From assembly GCA_010093605.1 (NCBI GenBank), contig MU004185.1:1988539-2052538 (forward strand): DNA of 64,000 nt. Reading direction: 5' to 3'. The position numbers and the translations under genes were made by a program. Below are positions 5,749 to 50,106 of this stretch, piece by piece. The stretch's first letter is position 1, and every line of letters begins with the position of its first letter. Under the pieces are notes generated by a model, which was given only the letters and a program-made list of their open reading frames with translations, searched no databases and had not been told where the DNA came from. The DNA comes from Lophium mytilinum. Taxonomy: Eukaryota > Ascomycota > Dothideomycetes > Mytilinidiales > Mytilinidiaceae.

Positions 5749-6439
5749 ACGCTTCAGCTCCAAGTACTGCCGAGTGTCAGTACCACTGACCGATAACGTA
5801 GCAAATCACACTCACTGTTCGATAGAGCTCATCATCAAGCGCCGTCACACCACCGCCACCCTCTCTCCTCCTTGCTGATGGCGAGTAACACATGTTGATC
5901 ACCACCAACAGTCCGAAACTCCATGGCAGCAGCAGTCTGTTGGCCCGCAAGACCGCCACACTCCTCCCTCCCAGCACCATGCCTCTGTGTAGTTGGCTCT
6001 TTTTGCTGGACCATGAAAACAACATGTTCGTCGAATTGATCCAAACCCCTTCCAACTCCCTGCAGGACTTGACGGTGCAAAGACGAGGAACGTTTTATAG
6101 GAGAAAATGAGAAAGCAGCGGTGGATTAATCAGCAACACGTGAGCTATCACGAGGTTCTTCAACCTAGGATAGCCAGGGAGGGGTTTGATCGAACGGTGA
6201 CGAGACGAGCGGTGACGAGACAGTTTGAAATTGAGAGCATCCGACGAAAAATTGCTCATATCCAGCGTAAATCACGCATTACCAGACATCCTCTAGATAG
6301 CACCATATCAGAACAAATCACGAACCCGCCAACCATCTCCGCCGTATCGACTTAAGACTTCACACAACCTAAATTCGACATACACCGATAATTCTGAGAC
6401 ACATATCTGAGACAAACCACTCGATATGAGAACGAGCTA

Positions 6440-14532: not shown

Positions 14533-16881
14533 ATGGACAACATCAATGTCTCCGAGCTTGTTGAACGGCTCAGCAGCGACGAGGAGAGCGTGCGCAAGAT
14601 GGCCGTCTTCAAGCTTCAGAGCGCGATCGGGGACCCCTCCTTCGCGGACGTGTTTATCTATGAGGGCGGGCTGCCGAAGCTGCGCTTTCTGGCGCTGCAT
14701 AGCACGGGCAATACGCTGGCGTATTGCCTGACGAGTCTGAGTAGGCTGCTAGAGCTGGACAAGGGGTGGGAGGGGGTTAGTGACGAGCTGATCGGGCGGG
14801 TAGGTGCCTTCTTCAAACCTTTTGCGCCTTTGCAACTGGTCATACATGCGCTTTGCTAACTTGGATATCGAATATCTAGGTTGTTGAACTCGTCGTCGCC
14901 CAGCCCCTCGTCAACGTAAACCGCGGCGCCATGTCCGTTCTTGCTGCTATAGTCTCCCACCCTCACCGCCGCGACTCCCAGCCTGGTATCACGGGCTTCC
15001 AGCGCCTCAAACCTGCCGTAGACCAACATCCCCAGTTCCTCCCGATGCTCGTCGAGAAGATCACGTCTGCGGACCATGCGCTCTGTGCGAATTCGCTGCA
15101 GCTCATCAATTCGCTCATGCGCGATGCGGTGGCTAATGACGAGGATACAGAGTGGCCTAAATTCATCAAGCAGCTGCAGGAGCTGGGCGTGATCAAGAGC
15201 GTGTATGGGCTTATGCAGAGCAGCGCAGTGCAGGACCTTGCGCATCCGCTTCTGGAGTTCCAGAGCTTGACAAAGGTGCTGTTGCGGAAGTGGAGGGAGG
15301 AGAAAGTTGATCTGGAGAAGCCGGATCACCGGCGCGCTATACGGGGCCTACACGTCGCGAGCGACCCTTCGAAGCCCGTCGATCCGAAGAAGAGCCAGAA
15401 ATCGCATCCGGAAAAGTGGCGGCGGTTAGGGTTCGAGACGGAGAGTCCGGCGTGGGAGTTTGATGCTACGGGATTCCTCGGCTTGATGGACTTTACGGAT
15501 TTCGTGTATAAGAATGAGGATGGGTTCCAGAAGTTGTTACTGGAGCAGTCGGCTGAGGCGGCTGAACAGAGGTGCCCGATTGCGAGGGCCAGCCTGGCGG
15601 TGACGTCGATTCTGTATGAGCATTTTGAAGTGGATAAGAGTGATGAGAGTGATTCGCAGCGGTATGTGAATCATGAGTCGCGATCGAATTTCGATCGAGC
15701 GTTCAAGCCTATGCTTTTGCATTGGTCGAGACTACATACTAGTGGCTTGAATGCATTCATCAGGCTATGGAAAGCTGCCGGAGCCGAAGTGGAAGACTTC
15801 GAGAAGATCGAGGAATTAGTAAGAATCCTGATTGAGCAGGTTGTTGGGCAGGCACCTAGAGTGCGGGAGATCAAAGACGTGGAAGAGGAGCTAGCAGATT
15901 TCGATTGTCAGAGGCTACGGGAGTTGCAGATGGAATTGTTAGAACTGACGTATGAAGACGCTTGGGGGCATCATCTACGGTAAGATCTCTCCCTTCGCTT
16001 TCCTCGCTCTTTCAAACCCTCCAAATCTAACTTTCCCTAGCCAAGTCCGCGACGAACTCAACCACGAAGCCCTCCAATTCGTCAAAGAACAACGCATCCG
16101 TTGCCTCCTCCAAGGCGCCTGGTTCCCACAAACCATGAACTACGCCACCGACGCTGGGCCCATCACCAGCAAGAGCCTGTCCCGCACGATACCGTCCTCG
16201 TGGCGGTATGTGAGGCTCTCACACAACCGACGCTACCTCCACTACGCAGACTTCGACGCAAGAGGGGACACCGAACCGCGACTCGACGCACTACAAGAGA
16301 AGAGTGAGTCCCCCCTTCCTGCCCCATTTGAAATCCACACTGCTAACAACAAGAACCCCCCAGTCGACCTCTCCATCGTCTCCTCGGTCGTCTCCAACGT
16401 CTCCGCCTCCGCCCCCTCCACCTCCTCCTCCGACAGCACCCTCAAAACCCTCCCCACCGCCCCCGCCAACGGCTCCCACCCCCACCCCCTCAGCAGCACG
16501 CCCGCCACCGCCTCCACCTCCACGAAAATCACCATCCACGGCTACCTGCCCCCGGACCACCCCTCCACTTCTCACAGTCACTCCCACTCCCACTCCCGTA
16601 CTAGGTCGACCAGCACCCCGGAGTCCATCCTGCTGCAGCTGCACCCGCAATCGCACACGCTGGCGTCCGAGTGGCTGGATGGCCTGCTAATGCTGCTGAA
16701 CCAGCAGCCGATTACGGCGGATACGAGTAAGTTGGTGAATTTGATCGGGGGGTATGGGCTCAAAATTCGGTTGCTGAATGTGAGGTATGAGGATGTGGGG
16801 GTTGAGGAGATGGTGTTGCCGGGGAGGGAGGGGGTGGATGAGGGGTATTTTTATGATATTGGGGGGATGGAGGGGGTGTGA
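14533..16881 (+). CDS. ELMO/CED-12 domain protein with PH domain
   Basis: Four exons (14533-14799, 14880-15979, 16041-16303, 16364-16881) give 715 residues. The N-terminus is an armadillo-like helical region (SELVERLSSDEESVRKMAV...). Residues about 300-450 match the ELMO domain (LLHWSRLHTSGLNAFIRLWK, then DFEKIEELVRILIEQVVGQ). The C-terminal part has a PH-like domain (ALQFVKEQRIRCLLQGAWF...WRYVRLSHNRRYLHY) interrupted by a long Ser/Thr/Pro/His-rich insert (about residues 545-650). By family, ELMO proteins partner DOCK-type exchange factors to activate Rac-like GTPases in actin control. The ATG at 14533 has a good CCATGG context. The insert is hypervariable in appearance and its DNA is strongly C-biased, so the exon 4 boundary (16364) deserves less trust than the others. 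Confidence 0.88.
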
Positions 16882-21850: not shown

Positions 21851-23728
21851 ATGCCTGGCTCCACGCTGCCCTCAAAAGCAGCCCGCCCCGCCGCTGCGAA
21901 TCTCTCGTCCGCTCCGTCCCGCGCAATTGCCTCCTCGCCGTCTCTCCGCGGCTCCTCCGCCATGAAGCCGGTGCTGCTGTCCGAGGCAGAATACGAGGCT
22001 CTCCCCATCCCGGTGCAGTAAGTCAACACTCCCCGAATTCCACCCTCGACACCACCCCTCCCTCGCATTGCGCGGCCACGGCCAGCGTTGCCTGTTCCTG
22101 CCAATGCCTCGCGCTGCCGGCCCTAACTGCGCCGTGGTGGGCCAACAGGCGGTCTACTGGCGGTTTCGACGCCGTCTCCTGCATGCTCCGCCCGCATTGG
22201 TTCTCACGCTGCATATCGGCAGCCTGTCTGCAGCTGCGTGACAAAACTCCCCACACGCACGAACCCGGCCACTGACAGCACATGCAAACCCTCCAAGCTA
22301 ACCTCACCCCGTCTCAGGAGAAAGTACTTCTCGTCGCTCGAGCGCCTGCGCATCGCTGAAGGCGCCTTCCGACCCCAACCTCAGCGCTCCACCTCCATCC
22401 GCCAGTCGACCTTCCACCCCAATGGCCTGACCACCTCTGGCACCCGAGCCCGCCGCCGTCTGAGAAAGCAGCAGTCGATCCGCCAGGAGTACAACATCTC
22501 CCAGGCTGAAGCCCAATGGTTTCTGTCCCTACCGGAAAAAGTTCGACGACGCCATTTCTCCCGCGAGGAGCAGGTCCTACTCGCCGGCCGCTGTGAGACG
22601 TACATCCTCGATCCCGCCGACGAGCAACTGTACCACGAGCAGACCGAATCATACCAAGACCTCGCCTTGAAGGACTACGACCGCCTGCAGGAACGCGTCG
22701 AGCTCTTTGAGGACAAAGAGGGCACGCCAGCACGCGGTCGATCCCGAAAGCGCTCCTTCACGCACGACTCGGTGCTCAACAACAGTACCGACGATAAGGA
22801 CGAGGAGACCTTTATCCACTTCGACGAGATGCCACCACCAGAGGCACCCAGGGAGCATCGCTCGAGGAGGTCGTCATTCAGGAGGACACTGTCGCTCACC
22901 GCCATACCCTTCACCCGTCACTCAACCTCCTCCGCACCGCCAACTTCGGCACCACCCTTCTTCTCGGCCTCGCAGCAAGCATGGAGACCTCGTGCGCAGT
23001 CCAATGCGGGCCCACGATACTCTAGCGAGCCCTCAGCGCCGATCTACGACCCCGAAGCTAAGCACTACCAGGACCCAGAAGCTCGGATGAAGCTCCGACT
23101 CTACTTGGCCTCGCCGCAGAAGTTCGACGAGGCCATCGAGTTCGGCTTCCCGTCCACCGGTGCCAACAGTGTTGCCCCACAGCTAGAGCTCCCCAAGGAA
23201 GTCACCCACGCCCGCAAGATCAGCCACGACGTCCAAACCTTCCTCAAAGACGACAAGATCTCATTCCTCGAAGATCATGACGACATCGGGCCAGAATCCC
23301 CTCCAGACTCCGATGATGAGTCCATGGGCGAACTCGAGTCCCCAGTCACGCCGTCTGACCCAACCCCATTCCACCCCACCCGTCTGCCGTCGTCCAACTT
23401 CTCATCCCTCGACTCTGCCGGTCTACCGCCCTTCCATCCTATGCATGGTCGGTCGAAGACTCAAGAGCTCTACTCCCAGGCCATTAACGGCAACCGCGAG
23501 ATGACGTTGCGGATGACACTCACGCGGCCTGACCTTCGTTCAGACGAAGACGCCCTGTATGGTTGGCAAGCACACCGAGGGACCAACGCCGACCCTCTCG
23601 CCCTCGAGGAGCTGAACCTGACCGACGACATGACCGGCTCGAGGGGCGCGTTCGCCGTCAAGTCGACTGCCCACAAGGGTTTCGTCAGCCGCTTCTTCAA
23701 CAAGGTCAAGACTTTGCAAAAAGCATAG
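21851..23728 (+). CDS. conserved fungal Ser-rich protein of unknown function
   Basis: Two exons, 21851-22017 and 22318-23728, encode 525 residues; the intron is 300 nt, long for this genome. The join gives EYEALPIPVQ|RKYFSSLERLRIA, a conserved opening in a family found across filamentous ascomycetes and sometimes labelled mucin-like in annotations. A basic helical block follows (RARRRLRKQQSIRQEYNISQ, WFLSLPEKVRRRHFSREEQV), then a disordered Ser/Pro-rich middle with acidic patches, and a short conserved C-terminus (GFVSRFFNKVKTLQKA). No signal peptide or membrane segment is visible, so a cytosolic or nuclear protein is more likely than a secreted mucin. No molecular function can be assigned. 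The start is supported by frame and by the splice phase. Confidence 0.8.
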
Positions 23729-24401
23729 TCGACCTCTCCTAAAATAGCGCCGCCACTAGATTGATCACATTCCAGACCACGGTAGATTGACCACCTCGCT
23801 TCACATCTGCATGCTTTCAAAGCCCGCACATTCCGGAGTTTTGAGCGCTTCTATTCCCGTCGAACTCGAAAGATTCACGATTTGTATGACTGTTTTCTAC
23901 TTTGTCTTTTTCCTTGTAGTTTCTTTCCCAAATCATACCTCTGCAGCACTTCTAGCGGGCGTTCTTTGCTTTTCCGTGGGGGCTGAAATACCGATACCCG
24001 TTCTTATGTGTGGAGGGGGCGAAATGGTTGCTGGGATCGGGGTGCTGGGTTCGTGGTTTCAAGAAGCTGGGCCGTCCTGCCTCTCTTTTTCCTTCTTTTC
24101 CACATGCTGTTTTAGCGAAAGGCATACGATCTGCAGCATAGGTACCAGGATGGCTGGTGGCTGGTCTCAGTGATGGCTTAGCATTCTCTTTTGTCTGTGA
24201 GGGAGTGGTGGATACCTGCATTATGGGTGGCGGGGGGCATATGGAGTCGCTGATACCAATGGTAGTGAGCTTTCGGGTGGTTCGATTACAATACGTGTGC
24301 CTAATTTCGTAACTGGGCGATGGTGCGCTATCGTAGTAGACGAAGATTGAATGGAAAAGATTGATACTCGGTCAAACTCTCTTCGAGCCCTGGTGTGCTG
24401 G
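23729..24401. other. intergenic, 3' flank of the Ser-rich gene
   Basis: Contains small frames on both strands (for example 23952-24221 minus) without motifs. A minus-strand TATA box at 24402-24407 just to the right would direct transcription into this stretch, toward the end of the plus-strand gene. Confidence 0.4.
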
Positions 24402-24580
24402 TATATACTCCTTCTCGCTTATGATATTGCCATCTTTTGATGATTGGTCGATGGGAAATCTCGCTTAGATCACGTGGCAACTTATCTTCAAGGAAATCCT
24501 TCCACTTTGCTTAGTCAGCTGCACCGCTTAGTCACGTCACGTGCCTTGCTTCGTCTCTTTCTTTTCGAGTAGGTATAAAA
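24402..24580. promoter_or_regulatory. divergent promoter pair 1 (two CACGTG, two TATA boxes)
   Basis: Minus-facing TATATA at 24402-24407, CACGTG at 24471-24476 and 24538-24543, and plus-facing TATAAAA at 24574-24580. The palindromic E-box (bound by bHLH factors such as Cbf1-type proteins) lies 31-64 bases from each TATA box. No long gene starts on either side. Confidence 0.5.
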
Positions 24581-25136
24581 GCCCGTCGCTCGCGGTTGAA
24601 GTTTCTTCTTTAGGGTCGGAGGAGAGTCAAAGACACGTTCGATTGAAAAACAGCCGAGGGTGGCCTTCGATGTGTTCGGGTGGCGGGGATCGTGTGCTCT
24701 AAAATGTCACACCTAACCCGTACATGTTGTTGCTGGAGTGGGTTCTGGTTTAAAACACCGCAGGGAGAAGTCCAATGGTTGAGGCTTGTGGGGGATCAGA
24801 ATTTAGACCAGGAAATGGATCATGGGGGGAGAGGGAGAGTTGGTAGTGGAGAGCTCTTGGTCGCGCATATGATGGACTGCATTTTCTGGCGAAGTTGGCG
24901 GTAGCGAGCGGTATGGAGAGGTGATACGGATGGGCATGGTAGGGGAGAGATTGAGAGTATCATCACTATGGACGAAGGCGCGCCAGCTCTCCTCCCCCCT
25001 CCATCGCGCTTTTGTTTCTCTCCAGTTTTCCCAGCGACCACCAGACATGTACTCGTAATGGCTGTGTTTTTGATGTCTGGTGTCCACCTCCTCTGCTCCA
25101 GAAATCGAACTACCCGCCCGAGGAGGAAGATTTATA
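24574..25136. other. module 1: facing TATA promoters, no long gene
   Basis: Bounded by TATAAAA facing right (24574) and a TATA box facing left (25131-25136). Inside, the longest frame is 94 codons on the minus strand (24803-25087, starting about 45 bases after the left-facing TATA box), without recognisable domain. Transcripts from both promoters would overlap as sense and antisense. Whether it yields small proteins or non-coding RNA cannot be decided from sequence. Confidence 0.35.
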
Positions 25137-25277
25137 CTCGCCCGCGAGAGCCAGCACGTGAGACACGTGGCTGCTCAGCTCATCACTGCTTCAACGCTAT
25201 CGAAGTCGTTGGGAGAGCGATGACGGCGTGACTTTCACGTGCAGACAGGCTCTGGCTGGGCGGTAGGGGGTATAAAA
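25131..25277. promoter_or_regulatory. divergent promoter pair 2 (three CACGTG, two TATA boxes)
   Basis: Minus-facing TATA (TTTATA on plus) at 25131-25136; CACGTG at 25155-25160, 25164-25169 and 25236-25241; plus-facing TATAAAA at 25271-25277. Same architecture as the pair at 24.4-24.6 kb. Confidence 0.5.
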
Positions 25278-25965
25278 GGTCCTTCTTCGTTCGTGTCGAG
25301 GTTTTATTTGGCATGGCGGAGGAGGTTCTGGGGCTGGTTCAAAAGCTTCTTTGCAGAAGTTCGATGGTGCGAATGGGATTGGCTGGCGTGGCTTCTGCAA
25401 CATATGCAAGAGCGTCAACTGATGGAGTGGTTGGGCCGGGTTTGGTGCAAATCTTTCCACGTTTTCCCGTCATGGGCTGGTGGGGGCGCAACATTTTCCA
25501 CGTTTTCCCGTCATGGGTTGTGGTGTGTGCAACAACTCAGTAAGGAAGAGAAACCTCATGGAGAGTGGAGTAGTCTCGGCGTTTTAATCATCAACTGATG
25601 GTGGTGAGTGGCATTGCTCGGAATTGAAGCTCCTAAGCTTCCATGAAGTAACGGTTCTGCGGAAGCGAACTATGATACTCAGCACCACTACTTCACAAGA
25701 TGATATGTACCACGCCTTGTATGATCCACCACCGCACATTTCCATTCTCTCATTTGCTCCAGATGTACCGACACCGACTCCATGAGGAGACTAAGACGTA
25801 CTCGTTGCCCCCAAAGCAGACACATCGCAAATGTCTCCTCCAGGTGTTGAAAAACACTCTTCTCGAACACCAACTCCATAGATTATTCTTGTGCTTATTG
25901 TTGATAACGAAAAATTCCTCCGGGCCCCATGCCTAAGAAAGCAGCTTAGCCCGCAAGCTTAAATA
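25271..25965. other. module 2: facing TATA promoters, small frames only
   Basis: From the right side a 63-codon frame (25688-25879, minus) begins MELVFEKSVFQHLEETFAMC. From the left side frames of 76 codons (25313-25543, plus, ATG about 35 bases after the TATA box) and 119 codons exist. No domain is recognised. The minus-strand stretch CTCATGGAGTCGGTGTC and, after about 35 bases, GTGCGGTGGTGGATCATAC resembles a stretch in module 4 (CTTCATGGAGTCGTTGTC...GGCAGTGGTGGTTGGATCAAC), suggesting common descent. Confidence 0.35.
25454..25521 (+). repeat. tandem 41-bp duplication inside module 2
   Basis: TTTCCACGTTTTCCCGTCAT followed by GGG(C/T)TG occurs at 25454 and again at 25495, with 14 bases between the copies. 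Near-identity indicates a recent event. Confidence 0.8.
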
Positions 25966-26116
25966 CGAAAAGATCGAAGCCTCAGCACGTTTCCTCGTGA
26001 TCCTCACGTGCCTTCCCCATTCTCATCTCGGAGTTGGAGCAGGAGTGAATCGCGTCATGCGCGGTCACCACACTCACGTGCCGACCAACTTCCGCCAGCC
26101 TAGCGAGAGTATAAAA
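25958..26116. promoter_or_regulatory. divergent promoter pair 3 (two CACGTG, two TATA boxes)
   Basis: Minus-facing TATTTAAG (plus 25958-25965), CACGTG at 26005-26010 and 26075-26080, plus-facing TATAAAA at 26110-26116. The minus-facing TATTTAAG is identical to that of module 4 at 44956-44963. Confidence 0.5.
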
Positions 26117-26798
26117 CCTCGCCACCCTCCCCGTTCTAGCTTCCCTCTCCAGAGGCGGACAAGGAAGAACTGAGGGAGATACAGAAATCTGAGATCGGCT
26201 TCTGCTATCGCGGATTGCGATTTGTCTGAGGGAAAATCAAAAAAACATCGCAGAAACCGCATGAGAGGGGGATTGGTCGGGACTGAGTTGCGTCTCGAGG
26301 CGTTCAAAAGATTTGGACGTAACCATCGATGGGTGTGTGTTGGGCTCATTTGTCACTGCCATGGAATGGACGGAAGGAGGGGAGAGCCAGCTGTGGCAAG
26401 ATTCTACGATAATGAAAACCTTCCTTTTTCGAGCCCGATTTGGGTTATCATACGCGGACATAATGATCAGATGTGTCGTGAGACTCTCTTTCACAGGATC
26501 GGTTCAGAAAGGTGACTGTCAGCACTAAGAGCTTGACGTGATAAACATCGAGTCGGGCTTCTTCCCCCACCACATCAGAACTCGCCTCCTCCGATTTTGC
26601 AGCACCGATACCACCCCACATGGTTTGTGTGAATCCCGAAATTTGACCTCCTCCATGGCATCACCGGTCGATCGCCCTTATTTGAACCCCAAACGCGCAG
26701 CCACCGCACCCCATGTGAACTGCGTAGTAATTGTTTTAAAGGGTCGATGTTGCTCCTAACCTGTACAGTCGAAACCTAGAGAGGGAAGAACTTTTATA
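26110..26798. other. module 3: facing TATA promoters, small frames only
   Basis: Bounded by TATAAAA facing right at 26110 and TATAAAA facing left at 26792-26798. Contains frames of 71-97 codons on both strands (for example 26222-26515 plus, 26237-26494 minus) that overlap each other and show no known domain. The architecture and the 689-bp spacing copy module 2 (695 bp). Confidence 0.35.
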
Positions 26799-26822
26799 GT
26801 AGGGATGAAAAACCTGCACGTG
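26792..26822 (-). promoter_or_regulatory. right border promoter of the array (CACGTG plus TATA)
   Basis: On the minus strand CACGTG (26817-26822) is followed after about 18 bases by TATAAAA (26792-26798). It closes the array and points left into module 3. Confidence 0.45.
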
Positions 26823-27168
26823 ACTCTTACATAAGCCACAAAGACCATGCCGTATGAGACAAACAGGCTACGAGAAAGTCCCAGAGACGCCAAAAAAGGC
26901 TGCTTACATCTGTCCGCCGCTGTCTGAAGCCCCTCAATACATTCTTCCGCACCTGAACAGGACGGAAGTGAACCACTTTGCACGGCCAGTGAACTCACGA
27001 AGGCGCCTCAGACGGTATCAAACACCATTGTGGGAAAGAGTTGAGATTGGATGAACGGGCGTATCCTACTACAAAACAATAACGCCATCCATGATATGCC
27101 GCTGAAAGAACCCAAGAAGCCTCCCAAAAGAAAAGACAATACCGACAAGCAATAGAGTACAAACCGAA
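26823..27168. other. short intergenic stretch
   Basis: Lies between the E-box array and the 3' end of the minus-strand hypothetical gene. One 66-codon plus frame and one 71-codon minus frame, no motifs. Confidence 0.4.
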
Positions 27169-27765
27169 TCAGCGAGAGCGAAACTCCTTCCGTCCCATGC
27201 ACACCCTCTTGCCGAAGTCCCACAACTGACCCTTCCTCAATGCCATCTTGCTCTTCCGGCGACGAGCAGTTTCTTGAGCCCGCTCACGCCAAGGCGATTG
27301 TTCCGACTCCACATCGAACGGGTGCGGGAAAACGCCATACGGATCAGGCATCTCCGACCGAGACATCGTTAGGTTCCACCACTTAATGAAAAAGTCCAGA
27401 AAATCACTCTCTGCACGAGTAAGCGGTCTCTGGGATTGTCCTTCGAACGGTATAAAGTAGAGTTGGAGGAGAAAGTGCCGGTGGCTAATGGTCCAATGGT
27501 TGACGATACGTTCATCCCACGTTGTTGAGAGTAGATGATTGATACACAGGCGCGTTATTGTTGGTAGATGCGGGGCCGAAGGTGGAGGTTGTATTGGCGT
27601 CAGTGGGAATGGAGGTAGAGGTACTGTCACAACTCCGGTACGTGGAGGAAGCGATGGGTCAATTGACTGGGAAGATGTCGTTGTCCCCCGCAGGGATTCA
27701 AGCTTTCGGCGTCGGTGGTGAAAGAGTGTGAAGATCCCAGCTCTCGGCATGTGTGAGTCGGCCAT
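27169..27765 (-). CDS. hypothetical protein, 198 residues
   Basis: An uninterrupted frame from ATG 27765 to 27169. The N-terminal 70 residues are basic and then Pro-rich; the remainder looks like folded protein (HLLSTTWDERIVNHWTISHR, LTRAESDFLDFFIKWWNLTM) and ends with a strongly basic tail (TARRRKSKMALRKGQ...). No signal peptide or membrane segment is present. Aromatic and Trp content in the middle suggests genuine coding. The family is not recognised; it could be lineage-restricted. It lies head-to-tail with the small membrane protein gene upstream. Confidence 0.5.
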   Translation of the reverse strand: MADSHMPRAGIFTLFHHRRRKLESLRGTTTSSQSIDPSLPPRTGVVTVPLPPFPLTPIQPPPSAPHLPTITRLCINHLLSTTWDERIVNHWTISHRHFLLQLYFIPFEGQSQRPLTRAESDFLDFFIKWWNLTMSRSEMPDPYGVFPHPFDVESEQSPWRERAQETARRRKSKMALRKGQLWDFGKRVCMGRKEFRSR

Positions 27766-39960: not shown

Positions 39961-41322
39961 ATGCGGGCTTTTGCTACTCTAGCATTTGCTACCGCGGCTA
40001 GCCTTATTGGACAAGCCCTGGCAGCACCTATCTCCGGCAGACTGATATCAAGATCCACGGGCATTGTCGTAACTCCTGGTACCGTCGATGACGTTATAAT
40101 CACCGCTGACAACACTGTTAACGGTACCGTTTACACCGGTCATAACGGGACGGTCACTGCGCCTCGTATCCAAGCCACCGAGAAACTTTCATTCGCACTA
40201 GTCAACAACTTCGACGGAGCCCAGATAAACGCTTATGTCACCGGCCGAGATGCGAGTGACAACATCGTGATGCTACAGGCTGACGGAAGCTGGTACTTTC
40301 CAAATCCCCAAGGTTCCACAACACCAGTTGCCATAACAGGCAACGTGAACATCTCTCTCGGTGCCAAAGGAAGTACCACCAACATTCAATTACCGGGCTA
40401 CATCTCCTCTGCCCGAGTCTACTTCGCCGAGGGGAATCTTCAATTTTTTGTCGTCGCAATAGATAGCAACGGCGGCGCCGGGCTCGTCGAACCAGCCGCG
40501 AACAACCCCTCCGATCCCAATGCCGGGGTCAACTGGGGCTTCGTCGAGCTCACAAACAACGACGGCGGACTCTACGCCAACATCAGCTACGTTGACTTCG
40601 TCGGCCTCGTCCTCTCCATGTCAATGATCGCTGGAGACGGCAGCGTCCAAACCGTCAAAGGCCTCCAAGCCGGCGCCGCCTCTTCGATCTGCAATGACCT
40701 GACCGCTGTAGCCGGGCAGGACGGCCAGCCGTGGGACCAACTCTGCATGAAAGACAGCAGCGGTAAGCTGCTTCGTGTTCTTGCGCCGACAAAGTATCTT
40801 GACTTGGCCCCGGACGCGTTTTCGACTTACTTCACGGACTACATCAACACCGTTTGGAGCACGTACTCGACGAAAGACCTCACAATCAACACCCAGAGTA
40901 CTTCTGGCAACGTCGCTTGCAGGACCTCAGGTGATGTGTTGAACTGCGCTGGGGATAATCGCAGCTACGCGAAGCCAGTTCCCAAGGATATCTTCGGGTG
41001 CGATAGTGGGACTTTTTACATCGACCGTGCTAACGATAATGCGATCCATTATGCTGTGGCGCCGCGACTGTGTGCTGCCTTTGCTCGTACGACGTTACTG
41101 CTTTCAGGTGGCGATGTGCAGCCTTCGCTGGATAGTGGGAGTTATTATACCACCGCGCCGACCCATCGTTACAGTCAGTATGTGCATAAGTACGAGACTG
41201 ACAACAAGGGCTATGCTTTCTCATACGACGATGTCAACCCCTCCGGCGAAAATGCGGCTGGTGTTGTGTCGGATGCGAATCCTCAACTCTTGACGATATA
41301 CGTTGGTGGATATGCAGGTTAG
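39961..41322 (+). CDS. secreted GH64 beta-1,3-glucanase
   Basis: A single exon of 453 codons. Residues 1-21 are a signal peptide with an Ala-x-Ala end (GQALA|API). The rest follows the GH64 pattern of a beta-sandwich plus thaumatin-like fold: YVTGRDASDNIVMLQADGSW near the start, NWGFVELTNNDGGLYANISY with the candidate catalytic acid E196 and, 16 residues later, D212 in VDFVG. That spacing equals the one known for the Streptomyces matuensis laminaripentaose-producing enzyme (E154, D170). The family cleaves beta-1,3-glucan; in a fungus it may remodel its own wall or attack other fungi. C-terminal features such as FYIDRAND and LCAAFARTTLL are typical. No intron and no CBM are seen. Confidence 0.9.
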   Translation: MRAFATLAFATAASLIGQALAAPISGRLISRSTGIVVTPGTVDDVIITADNTVNGTVYTGHNGTVTAPRIQATEKLSFALVNNFDGAQINAYVTGRDASDNIVMLQADGSWYFPNPQGSTTPVAITGNVNISLGAKGSTTNIQLPGYISSARVYFAEGNLQFFVVAIDSNGGAGLVEPAANNPSDPNAGVNWGFVELTNNDGGLYANISYVDFVGLVLSMSMIAGDGSVQTVKGLQAGAASSICNDLTAVAGQDGQPWDQLCMKDSSGKLLRVLAPTKYLDLAPDAFSTYFTDYINTVWSTYSTKDLTINTQSTSGNVACRTSGDVLNCAGDNRSYAKPVPKDIFGCDSGTFYIDRANDNAIHYAVAPRLCAAFARTTLLLSGGDVQPSLDSGSYYTTAPTHRYSQYVHKYETDNKGYAFSYDDVNPSGENAAGVVSDANPQLLTIYVGGYAG

Positions 41323-44151: not shown

Positions 44152-44203
44152 CACGTGCCTGATCACACGCGCCATGTTTTCTGGCTTCCTCAAGGTATAA
44201 ATA
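44152..44203 (+). promoter_or_regulatory. module 4 left promoter
   Basis: CACGTG followed 38 bases later by TATAAATA, facing right. Confidence 0.45.
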
Positions 44204-44955
44204 CCCCTCATCTCCATGGGCCCTCCTCCGTCGTCCAGGGAGGCAATGGCAAGTGTGCAAACGACGGTAGAACACGAGCCGATGGCTTTCGTGGTAGATT
44301 CTGCAAAACTGACCGAAAATGTTCAACATGGCTGGGCTGGGCTCGCGGTGTGGGGTACCGAAACGTCAGGGAGAACAACAAAATGGATCGTGGGTGCGGT
44401 GTGGGAGAATCAAAACGCATGCTTCAGCAGCTCATGGTTCGCGGTGCTCTTTTGGGGATGTAGGGCCGCGAATGCAGTGATGATGACCCCCTCCACTCAG
44501 ACTAGACATCCACATCATCGTACTAACAGGGCACCTTCAAGCGATTTCTCCAGCTCACTGCCAGCATCTTCGACCCATCGAGCTGCACGCCATCATCATC
44601 TCCGCCTCTCGACCCACCACTCCATGGTATCCCTTGATGCGCACAGTTGATCCAACCACCACTGCCCCACATATGACACTAAAGACCGTGGTTTGCCAGA
44701 CAACGACTCCATGAAGTGCCGGCAAAACTCCTGTTGATCAAACCCACACCACCACATCCTTCTTTTCCTTCACTATCTTCGCACCACAAGCAGATCCATC
44801 GTCAAGCATCATGCCTCGCGATGTTGCACCACTGCAACCACCATGACCATTTGCTATCGTACTTTTCCACTCAAACACATGTGACCTGTCCCTTGTGTCT
44901 TTTCAGACTGCTTCCTCCGACCCGACCATGATGAAGAAACGAGCGGGAGTCGCTG

Positions 44956-45027
44956 CTTAAATACATGAAGGGAAGAGTAGATGTTGGGTGCTTAGTCAGA
45001 TTCACGTGGCCGATAGGCATCCACGTG
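44956..45027 (-). promoter_or_regulatory. module 4 right promoter
   Basis: Two CACGTG sites 13 bases apart, then TATTTAAG 39 bases further on, facing left. Confidence 0.45.
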
Positions 45028-47507: not shown

Positions 47508-50106
47508 CTATAGCACCTCGCCGACAATCTTCGCAGCCTCCTTGTACGTTTTGAGGAGCTTCTCGCATTTCTCGCGCTCCGCTTTGATGGTATCGTCCTC
47601 GTAGAGAAGTTCTTGGAAGAGGTCTTCCTTGTAGAGATGGCTGACGAGGCGGTTTTGAACTACGTCTTTGGAGTGGTTGACAAGGAGGTGCATGACGGCT
47701 TTCGGAACCTGGTCGGCGATAGTCTCACGGACAATGTTGAAGTAGGATGAGATGAGGCGCCGAATGAGTTCGGTTTCGAGGGCCTCGCGCTCGGTGAGGG
47801 CAGGCGGTGCGTCTTCTTGGGGCTGCTGTGGGACTATTAGTCTCATATGTAAACAACGTCGACATTAGGTTACTTACGAAGGGGGTATAAGGACTATCGT
47901 AATCTCGAGATGATAGATCGTACTCATCTGGCACTATCTCCAGGATGTGTCTATCCGGCTGACGAGTATCCCCTCTACGGAAACTCGCCGAGATACTTGG
48001 TTCGACATTGGAGCTTACTGATCGGCTCACCGGACGATCGGAAGACGACGACATTTGAGGTGGTGCGCTTGATGGCATCTGGCCCTCTTTGCCAAAGAAG
48101 TAATTTAGGAAGCTGTCTCGAGTACCGCCCTGCTGACTGAAAGTCGGAGAGCGTGAATGAGCTCCGTTCAGTTGACCTGCAATACCGTAAGATCCGTTCG
48201 CAAGACGGCCAACTGCTGGAGACATACTCCTGCTAGATTTGGGGTTGTGACCGCGAATGGGGATTCCAGCTTTCTTCTCTGCAACGCCCTCTTCCCCATT
48301 TTCTTCTTGAAGGCCGTCGCCGTTTATGCTTAGTTCTTTCATCCGCCTCATTTCTCGCCTCTTCCTCTCCTCGGCTGCTGCCATCTGCTTTTCGCGCTCC
48401 TGCTTATCATTGATCACGGACGACATGGCAGCGGCGGCTCCTAGGAAGTTGGGGTGGTTCGTGTTGATATATGCGCGCTGAATGTCAATGAGAGACGCAA
48501 CATACGAAGAGGATGGCCCGAGTTGCTCGCGAAGAAGGTCGGACACAACTTCAATCAACTTTCCTTGCAGGCGAGGGTATCGGCTAAGCTCGGTAGATCC
48601 ACAAGTGTGGCAGATCTTGATCAGTTCTTCGTAGACAAGCTCCACACATCGCTGACTGGGGATTTCCAAGAGTTTGATTTGTGGTTTCACAAGCAGGTCA
48701 AAGGCTAATTCTGGCACGAACAAGCTTGGCCTGGGTCCGGTCGAATTTCGAATTGCTGTCCGGATATCGAGGACGGAGAGGTTTGTCGTGGGATCAATGG
48801 TTTCCAAAGAGTTGCCGAATACCGAGTTGAAGATGTAGTATATCCTCGCACCTCCACATAATTCCTTGGTTGAGATCTCTGCCGATGTACCGTCGATTGA
48901 GGAGATGAAGGAGGATGCGAAGCGGGTCATGAGCTGAAGGATCAGGGAGCCACGATGTTCCTTTCCGGTAAATGCAACATCTCCGTAACTGGCCAGCTCT
49001 TGTTGCGTTTGACCCATCAGAGTGTTCAAGCGAGCTTTGATATCCGGTAGTCGATCTCGAATGTGGGTCATGAGAGTGGTGTTAAGACTCTTCGCTAGAA
49101 ACTGGGTTCCACATCGACTGGCCATGTTCCTGTATGCGGGGTGGTGCTTGAAAAAGTCGCGTTCTGCTCCTAGAGCCTCTGCCAAAGATTTGTTGCCCTG
49201 AATATCCTGTTGGGACCGGTTCACTACTCCAATAAAGCCCAGCTTCAACGGGTACACACGTCCTTGCAGAATATCCAATGCGTTTGTTCCGTGGTCCATG
49301 AGATCGATTTTGGTGAGGACGCCGATCGTTCTCCTACCCATGGGATCCACATGCCGGGCGAGCTTGAGTGCTTCCGAATTAACGATATCGACATTTGCGG
49401 GTGACACTGCCAAAATTATACTGTTGGGTTTAGCAATATACTCGGAGATGAGGTTTCGGGTCTGTTTCTCGATGTCTGATGGCTGGTCGCCGATGGGGAC
49501 CTAGAAAGTGGGTGTTAGCGTCGTCTAGAAATTTTGCACAGGCTATGGCAACAAACTTTTGTCAGACCAGGCAGATCAACCAGCGTCAAACTGAGAACGT
49601 GAGGAGAGTAGATCTTCAGATTTATGGGCTGTCGGTTGATGCCCTTGTTGTTCCCTGCTATGCGCGCTGTCTCGTTCTCGATCTCCCGCTTGACCTCGGA
49701 AAAGTCGTAGAATCGGCGGCCGGATATGTGATGGAATTCCGCCCATTCTTGCTGGCCCGCGACGCTGGCGGGAGTATGGGGTATGTGCACTTCATCCTCC
49801 TCTGGCTTGTCGTCGCGCTCGCTAGGTACGTTGATGAGTTGAAGGATGAGTGGCCGCCGAGTAACGATGCCGCTTCCACGAGGTAGAAAGTCTCGACCAA
49901 CAATGTTCTCAAGCACCGAGGACTTTCCAGATGACTGCGATCCGACGACCACCTGTTACAGACTGTCAGTATAGGCGCGGCATTCCCGAGACTCGTGGGG
50001 GGCGTACAATTTGCGGCAAGTCCAAGGAGTCGTTTCCGATGGTGTTGAAGACCAAGTCCTGCAACTTGTTCACTATGCCGAGCAAGTCTTCGCCCAGCGC
50101 TGCCAT
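47508..50106 (-). CDS. DNM1: dynamin-related GTPase Dnm1 (mitochondrial and peroxisomal fission)
   Basis: Four exons (50106-50008, 49952-49557, 49500-47878, 47825-47508) give 811 residues. GTPase motifs: GSQSSGKSS (P-loop, about residues 37-45), GIVTRRP (switch 1), DLPGLTKV (switch 2) and [10 protein letters not shown] (base recognition). The dynamin middle domain follows, then a long variable B insert (Ser-rich, with [14 protein letters not shown]), and a C-terminal GTPase effector domain ([20 protein letters not shown]...). The opening [20 protein letters not shown] and the long insert identify Dnm1 rather than Vps1. It assembles into rings that constrict mitochondria and peroxisomes. The intron before the effector domain has an acceptor at CCCACAG; an earlier TAG there would break the frame. 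Confidence 0.95.

Follow-up and report, generated by a model that had tools for sequence, protein, structure and literature searches.

Paired arrays of variable 20-nucleotide segments behind E-box/TATA promoters: a putative family of non-coding RNA genes in the fungus Lophium mytilinum

The window considered here is a 64,000-nucleotide stretch of contig MU004185.1 of Lophium mytilinum (assembly GCA_010093605.1, positions 1,988,539 to 2,052,538 of the forward strand; C5:1988539-2052538 in the contig numbering used below), and our subject is a cluster of promoters at 24402..26822 of this window together with the arrays of short units that lie behind them. A first-pass annotation had reported eight CACGTG sites (E-boxes) in this interval, where fewer than one would be expected by chance, and had paired them with seven TATA boxes of alternating direction. 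All eight E-boxes are where it placed them (24471, 24538, 25155, 25164, 25236, 26005, 26075 and 26817), and chance would indeed supply about 0.6 per 2421 bp. The whole window holds 23 CACGTG sites, against 15.7 ± 4.2 in shuffled sequence, and with these 23 placed uniformly the probability of finding eight inside 2421 bp is 0.00035; among the 64 palindromic hexamers CACGTG forms the densest cluster in the window, the runner-up reaching six.

The TATA boxes fared less evenly. Five are TATAAA, three of them rightward (24574, 25271 and 26110) and two leftward (25131 and 26793). At 25958 the leftward box is present but weaker, with TATTTAAG instead of TATAAA, and the supposed leftward box at 24402 is rejected because its sequence, TATATA, is directionless, its distance of 63 bp from the E-box at 24471 lies outside the usual 26-30 bp and array units did not turn up on its left side. 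Once this box is removed, the strict alternation of direction and the lengths of the three modules (563, 695 and 689 bp) are as first described. The first module lies between a plus-strand promoter at 24538..24579 (CACGTG 24538-24543, TATAAA 24574-24579, 30 bp between) and a minus-strand promoter at 25131..25169 (CACGTG 25164-25169 and a second at 25155, TATAAA 25131-25136); the second between 25236..25276 on the plus strand (CACGTG 25236-25241, TATAAA 25271-25276, 29 bp between) and 25958..26010 on the minus strand (CACGTG 26005-26010 and the weak box at 25958-25965, a box found again in a module near 44 kb); and the third between 26075..26115 on the plus strand (CACGTG 26075-26080, TATAAA 26110-26115, 29 bp between) and 26793..26822 on the minus strand (CACGTG 26817-26822, TATAAA 26793-26798, 18 bp between).

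The first-pass annotation saw no recognisable gene inside the modules, which holds for proteins as far as ten ORFs go (see below) but overlooks arrays of a short unit. Each unit consists of GWKCAAMA, a variable stretch and YVATGG, CAAM and ATG being separated by 20 (±1) nt, and lies on the sense strand downstream of a promoter; the linkers between units are G/T-rich, C-poor and variable in length and sequence. The window was left out when the scoring matrix for these units was trained and is the sole held-out part for their detection; here the matrix found 17 units on one strand and 13 on the other, whereas four shuffled strands gave 1, 5, 1 and 2. Most of the units of the window fall inside the modules at 24-27 kb, a facing module at 44.2-45.0 kb and an array at 6.1-5.8 kb; the isolated ones number four.

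In the first module, a plus-strand array of three units occupies 24700..24825 (CAA at 24700 and 24751, a CAGA variant at 24797; 13.0, 21.3 and 20.1 bits) with a weak end-motif at 24871, and the leftward array facing it comprises one weak unit only, at 25029 on the minus strand (14.1 bits). The second module is fuller: five plus-strand units at 25340..25561 (CAA at 25340, 25398, 25448, 25489 and 25533), the third and fourth of which have the spacer stretch TTTCCACGTTTTCCCGTC in common, are followed by the end-motif GATGGTGGTGAGT at 25597..25609, and the three minus-strand units that face them (25780..25903; 25903, 25849 and 25807) are followed by GGTGCTGAGTATC at 25674..25686, minus strand. The third module has two plus-strand units at 26238..26332, one weak (26238, 13.5 bits) and one strong (26305, 21.3 bits), downstream of which no good end-motif was found, and three facing minus-strand units at 26572..26684 (26684, 26645 and 26599) with the candidate end-motif GCTGACAGTCACC at 26511..26523 on the minus strand.

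The same arrangement occurs elsewhere in the window, at two places absent from the first-pass annotation, as were the genome-wide promoter type and the unit arrays themselves. At 44152-45027 a plus-strand promoter (44152..44201; CACGTG 44152-44157, TATAAA 44196-44201, 38 bp between) precedes a four-unit array at 44258..44437 with the end-motif GATGATGACCCCC at 44479-44491; facing it on the minus strand are two strong units at 44622..44736 (44736 and 44649; 22.5 and 25.7 bits) with the end-motif GATGGCGTGCAGC at 44582-44594 and a promoter at 44956..45027 (CACGTG at 45003 and 45022, a TATTTAAG box at 44956-44963). A single leftward array occupies 6142-5825 (5825..6142, minus strand), with CACGTG at 6137, TATAAA at 6094-6099, units at 6005 and 5897 and the end-motif-like GATGATGAGCTC at about 5836-5825.

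The arrays are not peculiar to this window. In the genome searched (43,183,309 bases in 24 contigs), CACGTG followed after 24-36 bp by TATAAA occurs 183 times, against 48 for the reversed pattern. Downstream of the sampled promoters (74 of 78 stretches), CAAA precedes ATG at a distance of 24 (20 nt in between) in 45 cases, where the background per distance is 3.6; the corresponding figures are 30 against 3.0 for CAAC and 13 against 1.1 for TAAA. On the antisense strand the CAAA to ATG signal is weaker (5, 10 and 7 at distances 24, 25 and 26), and part of it presumably comes from the facing array inside the same stretch. Among 129 spacers of 19-22 nt, 79 are 20 nt long, 23 are 21, 22 are 19 and five are 22. 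The core pattern (ATGG, 9-39 nt, TCAAA, 20 nt, ATGG) has 167 places genome-wide against 16 when reversed; with 24 instead of 20 nt the figures are 58 and 28.

Unit and chain counts were taken from 336,374 bases of non-redundant sampled loci, which were mostly chosen by a match to the promoter pattern, so that array frequencies in them are not genome frequencies. The matrix was trained on these loci with the window and L001 left out, and for the counts of units and chains, near matches and complementarity to array parts, L001, L003, L006, L007, L008, L030 and L031 were dropped and L004 was trimmed. The sample, part of which served to train the matrix, contains 374 units, 98 chains of at least two units and 55 chains of at least three; three Markov nulls yielded 8-18 units with 0-1 chains, and reversed sequence yielded 13 units and no chain. 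A rough extrapolation to the genome (151 excess places of the core pattern, multiplied by 98/30 and 374/30) suggests about 490 arrays and 1,900 units, a figure to be considered with caution as the sampled loci, with their 30 pattern places, were chosen by promoter. Among the 100 of 167 places listed, 32 of the 86 on contigs C1-C9 are on C5, where 9.0 would be expected, a 3.5-fold enrichment; as some of these places overlap, those within 10 kb were also merged, which gives C5 20 of 61 clusters against 6.4 expected (P = 2e-6). At the level of the DNA, then, the arrays are real, promoter-oriented and spread across the genome.

Promoter and array are linked. For the distances from chains to promoters and for the comparisons of spacers, end-motifs, spacer composition, folding and pairing, L001 was dropped and repeated units or rows were removed by sequence. 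At 65 of the 78 sampled promoter sites the E-box and the TATA box are 26-30 bp apart; 46 of these 65 have a unit within 500 nt and 36 have at least two, compared with four and two, respectively, of the 13 sites with other spacings. CACGTG lies within 190 nt upstream of 67 of 108 chains, and in 46 of the 57 chains having TATA within 110 nt the first CAA is 58-81 nt from the start of the TATA box. Behind the TATA box of the 65 promoters the strand is C/T-rich for about 25 nt and then G-rich, the G-over-C skew passing from -0.33 to +0.23, which fits a transcription start at that point, and we infer that the arrays are transcribed. An initiator-like YYYA[GC], present at scattered distances in 36 of the 65 promoters and in 4 of the 13 others, is too weak to be claimed. 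Two sets of identical or near-identical matches to the promoter pattern, C8:1212228 and C8:1212767 (inverted, about 540 bp apart) and C3:1885293 and C5:1438093, probably belong to mobile elements instead of arrays.

Many arrays appear to have a defined end. For 57 of 106 tails the best match to the motif GATGRTGAGYAYC falls 32-61 nt past the final ATG; the motif is degenerate, and as a 110-nt search gave every one of the 106 tails a match, the poorer ones are surely due to chance. The inward-pointing promoters with divergent pairs between them, as first described for the modules at 24-27 kb, are general among the arrays: the 66 pairs of neighbouring chains comprise 26 facing, 18 divergent and, in tandem, 16 and 6, several of the tandem pairs being probably split arrays because their gaps are short. 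Last units are 172-249 bp apart in 19 of the 26 facing pairs and first units 267-358 bp apart in 14 of the 18 divergent pairs. As 26 of 66 neighbouring pairs face each other, mostly at near-constant gaps, facing promoters can be taken as a general design.

The arrays could in principle act at the level of the DNA, as spaced binding sites or through R-loops formed by transcribed strands rich in G, in either case behind paired promoters and with no role for the RNA itself. The skew behind the start would suit this, as would the 24 bp from CAA to ATG, which is little over two helical turns, but it would not account for arrays that are oriented by their promoters, many with an end-motif of their own, nor for the spacers kept in three near-duplicate pairs of units (see below), and we regard it as quite improbable.

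The first-pass annotation had proposed that the facing promoters produce small unknown proteins or overlapping sense and antisense RNAs, in which case the unit pattern would be a side effect. Facing promoters are present and 3' ends may overlap, but the end-motifs, where clear, come before the meeting point of paired arrays. The spacing of the units keeps no reading frame (the short chains in this test include low-scoring pairs, one of them from a U2 locus, the stricter counts being those of the set of 374 units and 98 chains), which makes small proteins unlikely. Open reading frames (ORFs) starting with ATG inside the modules do not exceed 91 aa, and ten module ORFs, from the 29 found in the wider stretch, gave no Pfam match above the cut-off, the best reaching 13.9 bits against 27. 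A protein-coding repeat gene was rejected on the same two grounds, frame and Pfam, and we hold convergent genes of either sort to be highly improbable. Ordinary genes occur elsewhere in the window, namely a dynamin-like protein at 47728-49413, a GH64 beta-1,3-glucanase at 39961-41319 and, at 14931-16878, two neighbouring ORFs, one with an ELMO/CED-12 and one with a PH domain, which may belong to a single gene.

The arrays are likely to be RNA genes. In 65 arrays of at least three units, folding was hardly more stable than in shuffled sequences (mean z -0.26 ± 0.13, lowest -3.5), and precursors of hairpin microRNA-like RNAs (milRNAs) were rejected since stable stem-loops were not found on average. 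At gathering score Rfam had no match in the window and none at 29 promoter loci (loci L040-L079 standing outside this search); at E up to 5 the region 23700-27200 gave only SNORD2, with 18.7 bits against a cut-off of 37 (E 4.9), and ARAGORN found no tRNA- or tmRNA-type gene in the window. The six Rfam matches on 35 loci were one at each of six U2 loci. The idea that the arrays are small nuclear RNA (snRNA) genes was dropped: six of eight U2 loci carry another conserved promoter element, and any CACGTG upstream of them is more than 200 nt away. This element, which begins CTAGCGCTGATGAGT, is common to the six and unlike the array promoters. Altogether U2 snRNA matches were seen at nine places (loci L032-L039; C18, C16, C3, C4 and C23). 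The 5' part of U2 is apparently split after AGCTCTCTT by a spliceosomal-type intron at seven of eight loci, L036 being unsplit; the apparent introns are mostly GTAAGT ... CTAAC ... AG, with GTTCGT in L032, and three loci seem to have a second one.

What such RNAs might do can be approached from their design. A compact promoter of RNA polymerase II type (CACGTG, usually 26-30 bp, TATA) would start a short RNA with little structure. In it 20-nt segments would follow one another, each flanked by GWKCAAMA at its 5' end and YVAUGG at its 3' end, and the linkers from unit to unit would be rich in G/U, poor in C and of no set length; many of these RNAs would end near GAUGRUGAGYAYC, and their genes are arranged as divergent and facing pairs. 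A protein would read the two constant motifs at their fixed distance, and the 20-nt segment would be a sequence-specific address that pairs with another nucleic acid, making the whole a multi-guide or address RNA. Of the working modes considered we put this guide-like one first, at somewhat less than an even chance, ahead of a scaffold RNA and then of Argonaute precursors.

The spacers themselves bear on the choice. An all-against-all comparison of 414 units gave 13 pairs of spacers with at least 14 of 19 equal letters, against one in the reversed control, and nearly all spacers differ. Three near-duplicate pairs (17-18 equal letters), each inside one locus with its members 38-192 bp apart, have spacers equal at 52 of 57 positions and linkers equal at 60 of 132. 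If the RNA were instead a scaffold, on which a protein binds the constant motifs at a fixed distance and is tethered or titrated as by a sponge RNA, the sequence in between would be irrelevant; it would then be no surprise that only spacer length is fixed, that near-duplicates are so rare, that inner spacer positions deviate only mildly from background composition, that the arrays fold hardly better than shuffles or that the three spacers searched (see below) lack clear targets. The three pairs that keep the spacer and largely lose the linker speak for a read sequence and against a scaffold, although in a small comparison biased by selection, and we think of the scaffold as a credible but doubtful second.

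One match would suit a guide-like RNA. A spacer of locus L046 (minus strand, near 1717) is a perfect 18-nt antisense to the end-motif region of an array in L055 (plus strand, near 1665), 1.46 Mb away; this is its only other perfect match genome-wide, alongside seven places at two mismatches against six for the control. By a simple count about 0.004 perfect 18-nt matches would be expected in the sampled loci, and more if the shared motif is allowed for.

Several observations weigh against the guide-like reading and should be set beside this. The linkers of the three duplicate pairs are slightly more alike than those of seven cross-locus pairs (mean 10.0 of 22 positions against 7.8), and because the pairs were picked by the likeness of their spacers, the kept spacers are a hint at constraint and no proof of it. 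When three spacers were sought genome-wide at up to two mismatches, few other places were found, about as many as with reversed controls: the first had its two own places and two others at one and two mismatches (control 3), the second its two own places only (control 2), and the third its two own and 14 others, of which 12 have two mismatches and the remaining two, on C15 and less than 2 kb apart, have one (control 13). One-mismatch places to duplicated array spacers are C15:698798, C15:700678 and C10:886723. Within the 336 kb of sampled loci near matches at 3, 2, 1 and 0 mismatches numbered 105, 10, 2 and 1, against 113, 10, 0 and 0 for reversed spacers, and so equal the control apart from duplicate units and the one perfect antisense match. 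Nor is complementarity of spacers to array ends, promoters, leaders or linkers general. At word lengths 10-12 the matches slightly outnumber those of reversed spacers, and do so both sense and antisense where array ends and promoters are concerned (for array ends at word length 11, 15 antisense and 15 sense against 9 and 7), and a large antisense excess 264-400 nt upstream probably reflects divergent arrays matching themselves. On the promoter side, 41 of 108 chains are without CACGTG within 190 nt and 51 without TATA[AT]A within 110 nt upstream; the chains without CACGTG have a weaker promoter or none that is recognised, or are pieces of split arrays. Finally, the first base of the spacer is A in 74% of units, with no 5' U.

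This last point also touches the possibility that the arrays are precursors from which Argonaute-loaded small RNAs are excised unit by unit, comparable to the piRNA genes of nematodes. The 20-nt segment length is in keeping with it, as are Piwi-domain matches at ten places (16 exon-level matches), RNA-dependent RNA polymerase (RdRP) at four loci and the concentration of pattern places on C5 among the matches listed. At C1:829218-839602 three of the Piwi places lie together, with array promoters 3 kb away at C1:842631-844497, but this adjacency is one case in ten places and is not significant alone. A preference for 5' U was not seen, T being the majority at no spacer position (the 5' end of a product may differ from the start of the spacer), and neither were stable hairpins on average; on balance we consider such precursors unlikely. 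The other Piwi-domain places are C1:942505, C1:2120465, C1:2188517-2189567, C1:1345, C12:1292186, C2:2071323 and C15:439442; the set is enlarged, and several on C1 have internal stops, maybe introns or decay. A bolder proposal, which we find rather unlikely, is a eukaryotic system of multi-guide arrays: very roughly 1,900 different 20-nt guides in about 490 arrays, many in facing pairs, denser on one chromosome and behind one E-box/TATA promoter type, would form a built-in repertoire used by the enlarged Argonaute set or by other ribonucleoprotein machinery.

If the arrays are expressed, this fungus would have short RNA genes by the hundred, all built to one plan and without an Rfam match where tested. 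RNA-protein recognition by a ruler would then be a class of its own, and the genome might also encode a repertoire of guides outside known RNA interference. The design is simple enough to be sought in any fungal genome and checked with existing RNA data. No description of such arrays was found in the literature covered, and as this was open-licence PMC papers only, the judgement of novelty may yet be lowered.

Among known systems, CRISPR arrays have variable segments of fixed length between constant motifs in a single transcript. The arrays described here have variable fixed-length segments between constant motifs too, but only the short motifs GWKCAAMA and YVATGG are constant, instead of near-identical repeats of more than 20 nt, the linkers differ from one another in both length and sequence and the host is a eukaryote. 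Clusters of box C/D guide RNAs likewise have guide-length segments beside constant boxes, and some of the end-motifs contain TGATGA, like a C box; however, the units do not follow a C-guide-D order, and neither the window nor any of the 29 promoter loci matched an Rfam family at cut-off. The disiRNA loci of Neurospora are transcribed convergently or divergently, an arrangement that the promoters here resemble, and we know of no unit arrays in them. The type I piRNA (21U) genes of Caenorhabditis elegans are many short Pol II units with an upstream motif and a concentration on one chromosome, each piRNA being transcribed alone from a Ruby motif (CTGTTTCA) with YRNT and starting with U (PMC6317315). 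The arrays are alike in short units, a defined upstream motif, variable short sequences and concentration on one chromosome; here, however, one E-box/TATA promoter serves an array of 2-10 segments, each between two constant motifs and without a 5' U, and not a single small RNA. Fungal miRNA-like RNAs come from loci proposed to give short RNAs and defined by a hairpin (PMC9757828), whereas the present arrays fold hardly above shuffles. Of the known families considered, those whose defining features could be compared each differ from the arrays in one or more of them, and the genome of L. mytilinum seems to hold a large family of fungal non-coding RNA genes, hitherto undescribed, in facing pairs, with variable 20-base segments set between constant motifs.

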